Origin: Bdellovibrio sp. ZAP7
Lineage (GTDB): Bacteria > Bdellovibrionota > FAC87 > UBA2466
Length of the DNA: 64,000 bases
Assembly (NCBI GenBank): GCA_945878405.1
Contig: CAMCTJ010000003.1
Location: 62,001 to 126,000, forward strand
Direction of reading: 5' to 3'
Under the pieces are notes generated by a model. It made no database searches, was not told the origin of the DNA, and was given only the letters and a program-made list of their open reading frames with translations. This document shows, piece after piece, positions 45,058 through 55,034 of the stretch. Position 1 is the first letter of the stretch. Each line of letters starts with the position of its first letter. The translations under genes and the position numbers were made by a program.

Positions 45058-46293
45058 ATGCCAACACCGTTCTCTTGGGTAACCATTTTCTTTTTAGCTG
45101 GGTTGATTTCTTGTCAAAATAAAAGCCGAAACGAAAACCCCCAGCCAGGTGAAATCTCTTCTCCAGCGGAAACGCACCCTGACCACAATAAAGATCCTGG
45201 GTCTGGGCCCCTGAAGCTAAAGGGAGAAGCCAGGGGGTTGGATGAGCCCCACTTATATGACGTTCAGTTAAGTTGGCAAATTAGCAACCGAGAGCCCTCT
45301 ACTTTTTTCATTGTTAAAAGAAGTGATTGGACTTCAGGCAGAGTGGTGCAAGGGGAGCAGGGCTTTTACCAAGACGAAGAGGTTCAAGAAGGAAAAGATT
45401 ATTTGTATCAAGTGCAAATGATTAACGGCTCAAAGAGCGTTACTTCGGATTGGATCCAGGTTCAGGTCCCCAAAGATAAAGTTTTCGAAGGGGAGGAAGT
45501 GATCCAGACCGGGAAAGTGGATGACTACGCGAGATTGTTTTTTAAAAACAAGGTCCGAATCGTTTGGCAGGGAGAAAAATTAGAAATTCGTGCTCGTGAA
45601 ATTATTTCAGAGGATGCGGTTTTAGATTCCTTCTCTCTAACGCAAAAGAATGCTGTCTTGGGAATGGCTGGTAAGGGGGGCGGAGAGCTAATAGTTCAGT
45701 CAAAAACACTCAAGGGAGCTTTGTTTATTCGGGCTGATGGTCAAAATGGTGGCGCTGGTCTCGAAGGTTCTCAAGGCGCTGTTGGAGCGGTCGGTACCGC
45801 AGGGCCAAAAACATTTCTTCGTTGGGGTGAGCCGTCCAAGTTTCCTGAGGGAGCCTATAACTTCAGGGGTTATTGGTTTTATTGTGATCCGCCTCGTCCA
45901 CCGGGTGCTATTGGAGAAACAGGGGGAACTGGCCTCTTCGGACACGCTGGTGGAGTAGGAGGAAATTCTTCTAAGGTGATTGTTGAAATTGAAGATACCA
46001 AGTCGGGAGATGTTTTTTTCACAAACAAGCCCGGTGTTGGGGGTGAGGGCGGCCTCGGTGGACCCGGTGGAGAGGGCGGGGAGGGAGGATGGTCCGGTGA
46101 GATTGATTGGAGAATCCATGCTTCAGATATGCCCCAGGGAGCAGATCTTACTCTCTTCGTAGCATGTCAGGCCAAACAAGGCGAAAAGGGCCCGCAAGGA
46201 AATAGAGGCCCTCAAGGACCAAAAGGGGATGACGGGTTTCAGGCTCCATTTTGTTTGAAGCTTGGAAACTCTCAAATGGGTTATTGTCCCTGA
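45058..46293 (+). CDS. Lipoprotein with Gly-rich and collagen-like C-terminal segment
   Basis: 411 residues. Lipobox LISC (Cys19) after a hydrophobic signal, so it is lipid-anchored on the periplasmic or outer face. A possible fibronectin-like region (about 60-150) is followed by a beta-rich part, then Gly-rich stretches (GGVGGNSSKVIVEIEDT, GVGGEGGLGGPGGEGGEGG) and at the C-terminus true Gly-X-Y triplets, GEKGPQGNRGPQGPKGDDG. AAAGGAG precedes the ATG. Function unknown; a surface or matrix component is possible. No enzymatic motif. Confidence 0.75.
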   Translation: MPTPFSWVTIFFLAGLISCQNKSRNENPQPGEISSPAETHPDHNKDPGSGPLKLKGEARGLDEPHLYDVQLSWQISNREPSTFFIVKRSDWTSGRVVQGEQGFYQDEEVQEGKDYLYQVQMINGSKSVTSDWIQVQVPKDKVFEGEEVIQTGKVDDYARLFFKNKVRIVWQGEKLEIRAREIISEDAVLDSFSLTQKNAVLGMAGKGGGELIVQSKTLKGALFIRADGQNGGAGLEGSQGAVGAVGTAGPKTFLRWGEPSKFPEGAYNFRGYWFYCDPPRPPGAIGETGGTGLFGHAGGVGGNSSKVIVEIEDTKSGDVFFTNKPGVGGEGGLGGPGGEGGEGGWSGEIDWRIHASDMPQGADLTLFVACQAKQGEKGPQGNRGPQGPKGDDGFQAPFCLKLGNSQMGYCP

Positions 46294-48234: not shown

Positions 48235-48310
48235 TGGTGGAGGCGATCGGCATCGAACCGACAACCCCCAGCTTGCAAAGCTGGTGCTCTCCCAATTGAG
48301 CTACGCCCCC
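48235..48310 (-). tRNA. tRNA-Ala (anticodon TGC)
   Basis: 76 nt including an encoded CCA. Acceptor stem GGGGGCG/CGCCTCC (one G-T pair), D-arm AGCTCAATTGGGAGAGC, anticodon arm CCAGC-TTTGCAA-GCTGG, T-arm GTCGGTTCGATGCCGAT. The only recognisable RNA between the exosortase-like gene and the DUF1275 gene. Confidence 0.97.
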
Positions 48311-48391
48311 ACTTTCCAAAGAAGAAAAGGGAATACCACAGGGTCGGCCAAGAAGTAAATTGATAACGCCATGCGAGACTTGTTTTGGTGT

Positions 48392-48433: not shown

Positions 48434-49420
48434 ATGAAAACCCAAATCCAATTAAGTCAGCATAAGAACTGGTACGGGACGCTTTTTAAGTCCCTTATCC
48501 TGATGGCACTACCCATTATTGAGCTAGTGGGCCTGCGGCTTTATTTTCACCATGTTCTTGGGCTTCGGTTTGGTTTTCCGGGTTTTACCGACTTTGAACT
48601 TATTTTGCCTGCTCCCTTGGGTTTCTTTGCTTTTGTCTTGGCGCTCGAAAAGGCTAAAAAACTGGATTTAAAATTTCAGCCTCTGGCCCTTGTCCTTAAT
48701 TTGTTAGCCGTTGCCGGGTTCGTTGGAGTTACCCTGGGACAGGGACTTACGATGTTATGGGTGATGCTGCTTCTCGCAACCATTGTAAGTGCTTTCTGCG
48801 TGTGGATTCGCCCGAAAGACATTTATAAAAATCCCAACGTGTGGGCGCTAGGGCCTAGCCTGATTATGGTTTTTTCCCTAGTGCTCTACATGAAATATGG
48901 TGAGGCTCTTTGGCTTTCCATGGTTTCTTACCTCGAGGGGCTCATCAAGGGAGTCCTTGCGATAATGGGAAATGATCTGATTGAGGTTTCCGCATTTAAG
49001 AATCGAATGCGAATTCACCACCCTGTAATCACGGTCTATTTAGGCCAGGGGTGTGGTGGATTTGATGGTCTTCTCTTTTTCTTGGCAGTTTTTTGCATCT
49101 TTGCTCCCCTTAATTGGGAGCTGTTTAAGCCATTAACATGGCTTAAGAATTGTGTTTTGGGGCTGTTATTCTTTTTAATCTTGAATGCCATTCGAATAGT
49201 TTCCCTGTTTTCTTTGGGCGTGATTTCAGGGCAGTGGTGGGGACGCGATTTTGCTCTGAAAGTAATTTTGGGCATTTTCCATGCCCACCTAGGCTACCTT
49301 TTATATGCTTTTGGAATTGGAATCTTTTTTAATACCCTGGTAGTTGTATCCGAGAGAAGAAAAGCCAAGCAAAAAACTACCTCTGAAATAGGGTTTTCCC
49401 CGCAACCAGCAAAAAATTAA
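48434..49420 (+). CDS. Exosortase/archaeosortase-like integral membrane transpeptidase
   Basis: 328 residues from ATG 48434, eight or so membrane helices. The catalytic pattern of the exosortase/archaeosortase family is present in order: Cys207 in YLGQGCGGFDGLLFFLA, Arg254 in LNAIRIVSLFSLG and His285 in FHAHLGYLLYAFGIG. The family cuts a C-terminal sorting signal and attaches the protein to the envelope. The gene is convergent with, and overlaps by 4 bp, a small Cys-rich protein with exactly such a C-terminal signal (49417-49794). Its type (which Xrt/Art subfamily) is not recognised; no EPS gene cluster is nearby. Confidence 0.8.
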   Translation: MKTQIQLSQHKNWYGTLFKSLILMALPIIELVGLRLYFHHVLGLRFGFPGFTDFELILPAPLGFFAFVLALEKAKKLDLKFQPLALVLNLLAVAGFVGVTLGQGLTMLWVMLLLATIVSAFCVWIRPKDIYKNPNVWALGPSLIMVFSLVLYMKYGEALWLSMVSYLEGLIKGVLAIMGNDLIEVSAFKNRMRIHHPVITVYLGQGCGGFDGLLFFLAVFCIFAPLNWELFKPLTWLKNCVLGLLFFLILNAIRIVSLFSLGVISGQWWGRDFALKVILGIFHAHLGYLLYAFGIGIFFNTLVVVSERRKAKQKTTSEIGFSPQPAKN

Positions 49421-49794
49421 ACGGGCTTTTTCTTAAGACGAAGCGCAGCCGTTAACCCAAACCCAGCCAATAAAAACGCGACGAGAAGCCAGGTTCTGCT
49501 GTTTTTGGGAAACTCAGCAATTCCTGAGCACGCAACCCCCATTTCATTTTCGCACTCAAACGTATTCCAGTGACAACCAGGATAATCGGCGCATTCAACG
49601 GAAGTTTGGGCCGTACAACAATCTATGCATACCCCGAAACCTATATCACACCCTTTGCAATGCGGATCCACACAGTCTTGGGCGCCTGAGCAGGGATCTT
49701 CACAATCAGAATAAGAGAGAGTGGGAAGGGCAACAGCAAGAAAAACAACCACCCCTATCACCAAGGATTTTCGGAGCAAGTTAAACTTTTTCAT
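49417..49794 (-). CDS. Cys-rich secreted protein with C-terminal sorting-type tail
   Basis: 125 residues. N-terminal signal (KSLVIGVVVFLAVALPTLSYS), then 12 Cys between 31 and 89 (31, 35, 41, 46, 49, 56, 59, 60, 68, 74, 81, 89), many with Asp, Pro and His. The C-terminus is a short polar motif (EFPKNSRT, 94-101), a hydrophobic helix WLLVAFLLAGFGLTAAL (102-118) and the basic end RLKKK. This tripartite tail is typical of sortase and exosortase substrates. The neighbour on the opposite strand is an exosortase-like enzyme, so this is its probable substrate. The number and order of Cys suggest disulfide or metal binding. A promoter lies right upstream (49803-49831). Confidence 0.8.
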   Translation of the reverse strand: MKKFNLLRKSLVIGVVVFLAVALPTLSYSDCEDPCSGAQDCVDPHCKGCDIGFGVCIDCCTAQTSVECADYPGCHWNTFECENEMGVACSGIAEFPKNSRTWLLVAFLLAGFGLTAALRLKKKPV

Positions 49795-49831: not shown

Positions 49832-49908
49832 TGGTGGGTGCTATAGGACTCGAACCTATAACCTACGCGGTGTAAACGCGTCGCTCTAACCAATTGAGCT
49901 AAGCACCC
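49832..49908 (-). tRNA. tRNA-Val (anticodon TAC)
   Basis: 77 nt with encoded CCA. Acceptor GGGTGCT/AGCACCC, D-arm AGCTCAATTGGTTAGAGC, anticodon arm ACGCG-TTTACAC-CGCGT (anticodon TAC), T-arm CTATAGGTTCGAGTCCTATAG-type. Confidence 0.96.
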
Positions 49909-52092: not shown

Positions 52093-53898
52093 GTGGCTAA
52101 AGATAAAATTACATCTAGTAGTACGGCAGAGTATTTTTCCAAAAACCTCCAGCAGGTGGGGTTTTCCTCTCCGACTAAGGCAGTTTTGACGACGCTTAAA
52201 GAATCAGTGGATAACTCACTGGATGCTTGTGAAGAACAAGGAATTTTGCCGGAGATTTCAGTTCAAATTGAAAAGCTGGGTGTCGGCACTCTCAAGAACA
52301 CCGATTTGATTCGCATTAAAGTTGAAGATAATGGACCTGGCTTAAGTTTAGATGATGTTCCGAAAGTTTTCGGCGAATACTTGGCTTCTTCTAAGTTTGG
52401 ACGAGGGAGATGTTCTCGCGGGCAACAAGGGATTGGTATTTCTGCTGCAACTACTTGGGCCCAGCTCACTTCCGCCAAAGGGGTTACAGTAGTTACAAAA
52501 ACAAAAACCATGCGCCAGCCTGTTCAGGTTCAGGTGGCAGTGGACATCAAACACAACAAAGGCCTCTTAAAGGAAAAAAAGGACGGCAAGCTAAAAGGTC
52601 CCCATGGTCTTTCTGTCGAGTTTATTATTGATGGAAGAATCCAGCTGCAAGGTGAAGGCGGTCTGATTACCTATTTAACTGGTACCGCTTTAGTAAACCC
52701 CCACTTAACACTGCATTACACATTGCCTGAGCAAAAAACGATCACTATTCCTCGGGTTTCGAACGAATCTCCGGATGTGCCCAATGCAACGGAGCCTCAT
52801 CCCCATACAATGAAGCTTGGAGAGTTTATTGCTCACTCGCATTTGTTTGGTCGAATGGCTCTAAAAGCGTGGCTTAAAAAAGGGTTTTCTCGAATCAGCG
52901 ACAATTCCTTGGCTGAGTTTGTTAAGAATGGGCTCGACAAAAAAATGTTAGACCTTTCTGTCGATAAAGTCTCCGAGACCCAGTTTAAAGACATCTTTTC
53001 TGTCATTCACAAAACAGAGCTGATGTCCCCAAGTACTAAGTCTGTGATGACCATTGGAGAAGCGAGCTTCTCAAAAAGTGTCAGACGCCTGGGAGAAGTC
53101 GACTTTTTCTCGGTGGTAACGAGAAGACCATCGATCTGTGATTATAAACCCGTTGCAGTAGAAGTCGCCGTGGCGAGGTTAAAAGGTTTGTCGAAGGGTG
53201 AAGGATCCGACGACGGTCCCGTACAAGTTCTTCGTTTTGCAAATCGCGTCCCATTGCAGTTTGATAAATCTGCCTGTGCGATGGTGAAGGCAATTGAATC
53301 GGTGAATTGGCGCTCTTATGGTCTTCAACAGCCTAAAGATAGTTTGCCGCTTGGTCCGTATGTAATAGCGGTAAGCCTCGTTTCCCCCTTTATTAAGTTT
53401 AAGAACGCCTCAAAAGAAACTATCGATGCCAGTGATGAGCTAGTAGAAGAGCTTCGAAGAACTTTGATTCAGGCTGGTCAAAGACTGTCTCGTCATATTA
53501 AGAAGGAGCACCGAGAACAAGATCTTGAGAATAAGCTCCGCTATATCGAGCAGTTCTGTCCAATCTTGGTAGATTGTCTGTGTCGAATTACCCAGGCCCC
53601 CGACAAGAGAAAGAAAAAAGCAACTGAGGGTCTCGAAAAAATCCTGGGTCGCGATTTAACCGTTGCCAAAAAAGAATTCAAAGAAGCCGATCTCGCGGCG
53701 AAAGAAGCCGCTGCCAAGGGAAAAATTCAAATTATTAAAGATGAAGAAACGCCCGAGGAATCTCCAGAAGAGAATACTCCGGAAGTTGAAGTGGTTGAGA
53801 AAAAAGCAAAGGCAAAGCCAAAATCAGCAGCCAAGGCAAAGCCAGCCGCCAAAGGCAAATCGAAAAGCTCGGTCAGTAAGGAGAAGTCAGCATCATGA
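52093..53898 (+). CDS. top6B: DNA topoisomerase VI subunit B (GHKL ATPase)
   Basis: 601 residues from GTG 52093 with AAAGG 6 nt upstream. ATPase clamp of type IIB topoisomerase VI. Bergerat motifs: KESVDNSLDACEE (36-48, Glu37, Asn41), VEDNGPGL (77-84), and SRGQQGIGISAATTWAQL (108 onward). Also YTLPEQKTITIPRVS, MKLGEFIAHSHLF and LRFANRVPLQFD of the transducer domain. The C-terminus has no Ig-like domain; it is a Glu then Lys/Ala/Pro/Ser-rich tail of about 60 residues resembling histone H1 tails. Overlaps top6A by ATGA. Confidence 0.95.
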   Translation: MAKDKITSSSTAEYFSKNLQQVGFSSPTKAVLTTLKESVDNSLDACEEQGILPEISVQIEKLGVGTLKNTDLIRIKVEDNGPGLSLDDVPKVFGEYLASSKFGRGRCSRGQQGIGISAATTWAQLTSAKGVTVVTKTKTMRQPVQVQVAVDIKHNKGLLKEKKDGKLKGPHGLSVEFIIDGRIQLQGEGGLITYLTGTALVNPHLTLHYTLPEQKTITIPRVSNESPDVPNATEPHPHTMKLGEFIAHSHLFGRMALKAWLKKGFSRISDNSLAEFVKNGLDKKMLDLSVDKVSETQFKDIFSVIHKTELMSPSTKSVMTIGEASFSKSVRRLGEVDFFSVVTRRPSICDYKPVAVEVAVARLKGLSKGEGSDDGPVQVLRFANRVPLQFDKSACAMVKAIESVNWRSYGLQQPKDSLPLGPYVIAVSLVSPFIKFKNASKETIDASDELVEELRRTLIQAGQRLSRHIKKEHREQDLENKLRYIEQFCPILVDCLCRITQAPDKRKKKATEGLEKILGRDLTVAKKEFKEADLAAKEAAAKGKIQIIKDEETPEESPEENTPEVEVVEKKAKAKPKSAAKAKPAAKGKSKSSVSKEKSAS

Positions 53899-55034
53899 GA
53901 AGTGACAGCATTCCCAAAATTTCAAAAGATTTATGCAACAAAATGCTAGCGGACCTGGAGAACGCTCGACGGCCGATATTGGAGGCAATCAAATGTTCTC
54001 TGGACAATTCAAATTATAGTCCCAAAGTGGGATATCTGACTCCCGGAGATAAAAAAGTTCGAACAGAATTGAATGTGTCTTCTGTTCAGAAAATGTCACG
54101 AGCCATTTTTCTCCTTGAGGTTCTTTTAAGAAATATTGATACCGGCGCAGTTAATACAAAGCGTGAGCTCTATTATATTGCAAAAGGTGAAGTGAAACAC
54201 GATCCTCATCTAAAGCCCCTGGATTTTCAGGATCAATCTGAGAGTGATTCAGTAATTGATTTTATCTGTGAAATGCTGGAGTGCTACCGAGAGGATTTAA
54301 ATTGTTATGCGAATGATCGAGGGGGGCAAACCTACTCGAATCAATTAGTTGTCACAGAAACTTTGCCAGATGGAACCAAAGCAGTTGTCGACCTGGGCAG
54401 TTTGGGGACGTCGCCATTTCAGCCCAAGAACCGCCCGCAGAGTTTGCAACTTAAAGCGAAAAAGAAAATTGATTTTTGTCTGGTCGTAGAATCAGAGGGT
54501 ACGGCTAACACGTTTGTTGCGAATGGTTTTTGTAAGAGAAATAATTCTATTTTAATTGGTGCCCAAGGGGTTCCTAGTAATGCCGTTCGAGGTTGGGCCA
54601 AACTCATTCAAGATCAGCTGAAGGTGCCGATCTTCTTTTTCGGAGATTTGGACGCGTATACTATTCAGAACATTTACCGAACCTTGAAAGCCGGTTCAGC
54701 TGCCAGCTTGATTCGAAATTCTGATTTCAGTGCGCCGGATGTTCACTTTCTGGGGGTATTACCTGAAGATATCAAAAAGTACGATCTCAGTGACTATCCC
54801 GTGAAAGAAACGGATGTGAGTGAAGCAAGAGCTTTGAAAAAAGCCGCAGATGCTCTAAAGAACGATCCTTTTTTCCAAGACAAACGAAACAAACATCTTT
54901 CAAAGCTTCTTGAGTGGTTGCTTAAAAACAAACGTCGTTGTGAGCAACAAGCGTTCTTCATGGTAGATCCTCGAGATCCTACCATGCCGGAAAAGATCAT
55001 CGTCGAAAAAATCAAAAAGGGTATCTACCTCTAG
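53895..55034 (+). CDS. top6A: DNA topoisomerase VI subunit A (Spo11-like)
   Basis: 379 residues, DNA-cleaving subunit. The winged-helix (5Y-CAP) domain holds the tyrosine pair in KRELYYIAKGE (Tyr93-Tyr94, the second expected to attack DNA). The TOPRIM domain has LVVESEGT (catalytic Glu) and FFGDLDAYTIQNIY (Asp-x-Asp). DLGSLGTSPF and GVPSNAVRGWAKL are also typical. All key residues are present, so with the B subunit it should make an active A2B2 enzyme that relaxes supercoils by double-strand passage. Translationally coupled to top6B. Confidence 0.95.
   Translation: MRSDSIPKISKDLCNKMLADLENARRPILEAIKCSLDNSNYSPKVGYLTPGDKKVRTELNVSSVQKMSRAIFLLEVLLRNIDTGAVNTKRELYYIAKGEVKHDPHLKPLDFQDQSESDSVIDFICEMLECYREDLNCYANDRGGQTYSNQLVVTETLPDGTKAVVDLGSLGTSPFQPKNRPQSLQLKAKKKIDFCLVVESEGTANTFVANGFCKRNNSILIGAQGVPSNAVRGWAKLIQDQLKVPIFFFGDLDAYTIQNIYRTLKAGSAASLIRNSDFSAPDVHFLGVLPEDIKKYDLSDYPVKETDVSEARALKKAADALKNDPFFQDKRNKHLSKLLEWLLKNKRRCEQQAFFMVDPRDPTMPEKIIVEKIKKGIYL

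Follow-up and report, generated by a model that had tools for sequence, protein, structure and literature searches.

Exosortases are widespread and often act on many divergent substrates, so that enzyme–substrate pairs are assigned statistically. Does the locus considered here, where an exosortase-like gene meets the gene of a single Cys-rich exported protein, represent a system with one enzyme and one target? The locus lies in a window (the whole stretch of DNA analyzed, 64,000 nt) of a host genome assembled to 2.24 Mb in 24 contigs and approximately 96% complete. The exosortase gene occupies positions 48434–49420 on the plus strand and encodes a multi-helix membrane protein of 328 aa, with the ATG at 48434 taken as its start; an in-frame start at 48371 would give a longer protein, and homologues start near or after 48434. 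The target gene, at 49417–49794 on the minus strand, encodes 125 aa with 12 Cys, and the stop codons of the two genes overlap in the 4-bp TTAA. Reading of the ORFs hence bears out both genes, their positions and the 4-bp overlap on opposite strands, as described in the initial annotation. The pair is flanked by genes of tRNA-Ala (TGC) at 48235–48310 and tRNA-Val (TAC) at 49832–49908, both on the minus strand, which provide context and stand outside the proposed mechanism.

Two more loci of the window deserve mention in their own right. The gene at 45058–46293 (plus strand) encodes a 411-aa lipoprotein-type protein with glycine-rich collagen-like repeats, whose match to the Pfam Collagen model is under the cut-off. 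The two subunits of topoisomerase VI, an enzyme to our knowledge uncommon in bacteria, are encoded side by side at 52093–55034 on the plus strand (Topo-VIb_trans; TOP6A-Spo11 Toprim, TP6A_N), and topoisomerase VI-like ORFs are also present in G006 (L052), there also after proC and gltA.

The window enzyme scores 19.7 bits against the exosortase model TIGR04178, with the curated cut-off being 23, and has no PF09721 match in a Pfam scan. Homologues with approximately 20–46% identity are found within the genus and family of the window, and two of them (L002 and L003, 41–46% identical to the window enzyme) score 30.1 and 28.0 bits against the same cut-off of 23. In total, TIGR04178 is matched by 12 of 13 aligned family members (best E-value 6.8e-11) and PF09721 by four of them, and each of the ten relatives that were re-scanned individually exceeds the TIGR04178 cut-off. 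Cys207, Arg254 and His283 are invariant, in that order, in 15 of 15 homologues; also invariant in the alignment are G209, G212 and N251. Thus, the HMM search with alignment of the Cys, Arg and His residues upholds the initial exosortase assignment, and of the catalytic trio proposed there Cys207 and Arg254 stand, but the histidine had been placed at position 285, which is variable (D in the fusions described below, Q in L037), whereas the conserved one is His283. As the relatives match TIGR04178 and the trio is invariant, the window enzyme is, judging by sequence, a divergent member of the exosortase family.

No member exceeds the cut-off of a named exosortase subfamily (XrtE, XrtH, XrtO, XrtT, XrtX, ArtC, and others), and the scores are far below it, e.g., 20.5 vs. 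86 for XrtH and 29.2 vs. 100 for ArtC. The AlphaFold2 model of the enzyme, a highly hydrophobic protein, is confident (mean pLDDT 83.5) and nearly all helical, the helices being long and the Cys preceded by short strands; Foldseek yields no meaningful match to an exosortase fold in PDB, and PDB profile searches with the enzyme and with the target return nothing for either. A search of plasmid sequences gave no match, and a closer exosortase alignment against the contig collection gave three loci, in two lake metagenome-assembled genomes.

All features initially noted in the 125-residue exported protein are present: an N-terminal signal-type segment, an ectodomain with 12 Cys, a polar motif (EFPKNS, within AEFPKNSRT), a hydrophobic C-terminal helix, and a basic end (KKK, within RLKKK). 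The sorting-type tail, comprised of AEFPKNSRT, the helix and RLKKKPV, is encoded inside the target gene at 49420–49518 on the minus strand. The Cys pattern of the target is common to its relatives, and the number of Cys in the ectodomain is even (6, 8, 10 or 12) in 15 of 15 targets, among them the target parts of both fusions, although these are counts in related sequences with hand-set ectodomain borders, so that a binomial figure overstates the significance. A sixteenth target, truncated, in G004, has 8 Cys by inspection. An even number in every ectodomain is consistent with complete disulfide pairing, which we consider probable, and we infer that the target functions as a small disulfide-stapled surface domain.

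Most relatives have a P-E-[L/I/V]-P motif in the tail; it reads A-E-F-P in the window target and F-[P/L]-E-G in the fusions. No family model exceeds its cut-off for the target. The PEP-CTERM models do not match any of 11 targets, and other NCBIfam tail models give nothing above the cut-off; the best scores of MYXO-CTERM (11.9 bits, cut-off 20) and LPXTG (8.8, cut-off 15.9) are both in relatives, and neither model matches the window target. The placement of the tail outside PEP-CTERM and MYXO-CTERM in the initial annotation hence agrees with the lack of model matches, but, judged by its motif, the tail is better regarded as related to PEP-CTERM, with a motif of the P-E-hydrophobic-P type, than as unrelated.

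We observe a marked difference in conservation of the target parts in the sister genus g7, where the exosortases are 62% identical, the target ectodomains 44%, and the tails 86%. For a control, an ordinary single-pass membrane protein from the same g7 genomes, the trend is reversed, with 85% identity in the body and 32% at the C-terminus. This comparison indicates that membrane anchoring alone does not explain the constraint on the g7 target tail. In the window's own genus the tail is no better kept than the ectodomain (27% vs. 36% identity), and thus the strong tail constraint is a feature shown for g7 only.

The linkage of the two genes was considered at 20 exosortase loci found in the window's order. 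Four loci at contig borders (G006:C219, G004:C435, G012:C17, G011:C225) and a degenerate one lacking the Cys segment (G007:C68) were set aside, leaving 15 informative loci. The target is adjacent to the exosortase at nine of them (the window, G007:C17, G005:C319, G001:C10, G008:C64, G012:C170, G011:C228, G009:C61, G013:C83), is one or two genes off at two (G005:C122, G006:C94), and is fused to the enzyme in frame at two (G001:C15, G001:C62), while no target is found within reach at two (G005:C85 and G014:C131); the genome of G005:C85 has an orphan target, L070. Co-occurrence of both genes in related genomes, the check proposed when the pair was first described, is therefore observed at 13 of 15 informative loci, with the genes adjacent, near or fused. 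The pairs are convergent, divergent, co-directional or fused, and their neighborhoods differ, hence inheritance of a single arrangement does not account for the linkage.

Some features of these neighborhoods are of separate interest. The ORF at the degenerate locus (L012:1120–1791, minus strand) is exosortase-like, 223 aa long, and devoid of the catalytic Cys segment. A small lipoprotein-like gene (approximately 85–105 aa) is located near the exosortase in several relatives (L051, L052, L053, L054, L055, L056), often with the gene of a large secreted protein behind it; the small gene is absent beside the window pair. The N-terminal 500 aa of a 2,892-aa secreted-type protein with Laminin_G_3, Cu-binding MopE-type and fibronectin III domains (L151:5399–14077, G000:C7) match the large protein encoded beside the exosortase in G007 and G006.

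Among 369 genomes of the phylum, the window-type exosortase is present in 12 (E ≤ 1e-12), all from the window's order, and the target profile has matches at E < 1e-8 in six, all of them exosortase-bearing, again in line with the two-gene pairing. Three further weak matches of this profile (E-values 0.002–0.009) carry stops and are probably due to chance. TIGR04178 exceeds its cut-off in 21 of the 369 genomes. The exosortases of families f15 and f16 are preceded by a single tailed protein without a Cys-rich domain (GAPELPGD... and the like), and those of G344 and G327 adjoin one PEP-CTERM-like protein. These single tailed neighbors suggest that one-to-one pairing may be general in the phylum, the Cys-rich client being the version of the window's order. 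The exosortases of f15 and f16 (L229–L233) also have a conserved gene of approximately 490–500 aa next downstream.

In the host genome, the exosortase search identifies one copy, that of the window, and no other credible exosortase is found there by TIGR04178. Among 2,218 ORFs called from approximately 99.7% of the host genome, the window target alone combines a signal segment, a Cys-rich ectodomain and a basic C-terminal tail. Low-hydropathy tails such as VPELPSWFGPFF escape the first tail detector, which was seen in a positive control; a missed second substrate in the host genome is possible, with its chance lowered by a motif-led scan of the host genome ORFs, which yields no better second candidate. 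In g7, a search with the 36-aa tail gives a single strong match per genome in five genomes, with the next matches at E > 0.02. The target initially described as single thus stays so when other proteins with the same C-terminal tail are searched for, with one in the host genome and one per genome in g7.

Two proteins were considered as second substrates, of which the first was rejected and the other set aside. L156 (G000:C8:86235–86951) has a PELP-type tail and is present in 14 of 14 family genomes, with the motif not conserved. The M36-type peptidase (L076:2065–3915, G000:C6), ending in a C-terminal Cys, a helix and a basic end, has a tail without the motif, and this tail also occurs in G002 and G003, genomes with no detectable exosortase of the window's family. 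More generally, the GxxxC–helix–basic tail recurs in relatives, including genomes without this exosortase, and appears to be a distinct sorting-type tail.

The most unusual part of the system is the fusions in G001. The two fusion ORFs, L005:904–2418 (minus strand, 504 aa) and L011:1462–2955 (plus strand, 497 aa), are paralogues with 63% identity, and each comprises, in one frame without a stop, a complete exosortase with the Cys, Arg and His residues, an internal signal-like segment, a 10-Cys region, and a tail with a short motif, a helix and a basic end. As both paralogues have the same joint, a sequencing error is unlikely. In the AlphaFold model of the fusion, confidence is high for most of the enzyme and low for the target part, so that docking of the tail cannot be judged from it. 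A limited literature search found no description of such a fusion between an exosortase and its target. We tentatively suggest, with the balance of our judgment somewhat against it, that the fusions may be working self-contained sorting units, with the enzyme and its own disulfide-rich substrate in one polypeptide. The substrate would then be set free through cleavage of the internal signal-like segment as a signal peptide, through the enzyme's cutting of the tail, or through both, and G001 would provide an example of a sorting enzyme carrying its substrate in cis.

A dedicated one-enzyme, one-substrate exosortase system is, in our opinion, a highly probable explanation of the pair, and on the best reading of the sequences the enzyme represents a new exosortase subfamily, whose dedicated client would be a single disulfide-rich surface protein. 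The target would leave the cytoplasm via the Sec pathway, its ectodomain would fold with the even set of Cys, probably all in disulfides, and the C-terminal helix with the Lys cluster would halt it in the inner membrane. Located in the same membrane, the exosortase would recognize the motif and the helix, and Cys207, helped by Arg254 and His283, would attack the backbone just before the helix, with the ectodomain being passed to water or an envelope acceptor and reaching the surface or the medium. A cut near the motif and transfer to water or an acceptor should be expected from what is known about the family (PMC1569441; for the archaeal enzyme, PMC9263693), and the thioester chemistry, the cleavage position, the acceptor and the final location are likewise predicted.

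Other explanations of the pair were weighed against this one. The exosortase could serve several host substrates, the Cys-rich neighbor being one among them, as does the classical exosortase A with its many PEP-CTERM clients (PMC1569441, PMC12188702), and the helix and basic end of the host M36-type peptidase, as well as the genuine tails missed by the first detector, are compatible with this possibility. We consider it unlikely, given that the motif-based scan produced no other convincing candidate, the peptidase tail is motif-less and occurs in genomes with no detectable exosortase of the window's family, the motif of L156 is not conserved, and g7 genomes have one tail each. It is also rather improbable that the target is an uncleaved single-pass anchored periplasmic protein and the exosortase-like protein is its non-proteolytic chaperone, stabilizer or partner. 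Ordinary anchored proteins indeed have the same layout (a signal, an ectodomain, a C-terminal helix with Lys), and one such protein, L156, is found in the host genome and throughout the family, but the catalytic-type Cys, Arg and His are invariant, and in g7 the tail is the most conserved part of the target and the least conserved part of the ordinary anchor.

Finally, the two genes could be neighbors by chance or by lineage inheritance, functionally unconnected. The target lies in synteny with proC and gltA in both the window and G006, and hence the linkage is partly inherited, but the several orientations, fusion included, and the different neighborhoods make a functionally empty association very improbable.

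With the dedicated pair as the preferred reading, the client family is defined as small disulfide-rich proteins, and a minimal pair with one obvious substrate, fused in one genome, is a system where recognition, the cleavage site and the acceptor could be worked out. The enzyme and client fused in a related genome make the enzyme–substrate pairing directly testable.

Among known systems, rhombosortase / GlyGly-CTERM is similar in having a sorting protease beside a lone target gene, and there enzyme–target adjacency tends to accompany single-target systems (PMC3237569); the rhomboid serine protease family and the tail are, however, both unrelated to those of the window system. Archaeosortase A / PGF-CTERM belongs to the same superfamily, and its C-terminal tripartite signal is cleaved prior to lipid attachment (PMC9263693), but it is archaeal and has several substrates and a different motif. 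Exosortase A / PEP-CTERM (EpsH; PF09721) shares with the window system a multi-helix membrane enzyme with Cys, Arg and His, and targets with a signal peptide and a tripartite tail with P-E in the motif (PMC1569441). On the contrary, the window system has one target where exosortase A has many, its motif type is P-E-hydrophobic-P or A/S-E-hydrophobic-P with no PEP-CTERM model match, and no exopolysaccharide locus is seen beside the window pair. Family members have weak matches to TIGR04162, the exosortase E model (best E-value 1.5e-4). Exosortase E / VPEID-CTERM, which Haft et al. are said to have described in 2012 as a single-target system, resembles the window system in the single target and in a motif with V-P-E, and differs from it in that exosortase E has a protease domain, whereas in G001 the enzyme is fused to the target itself.
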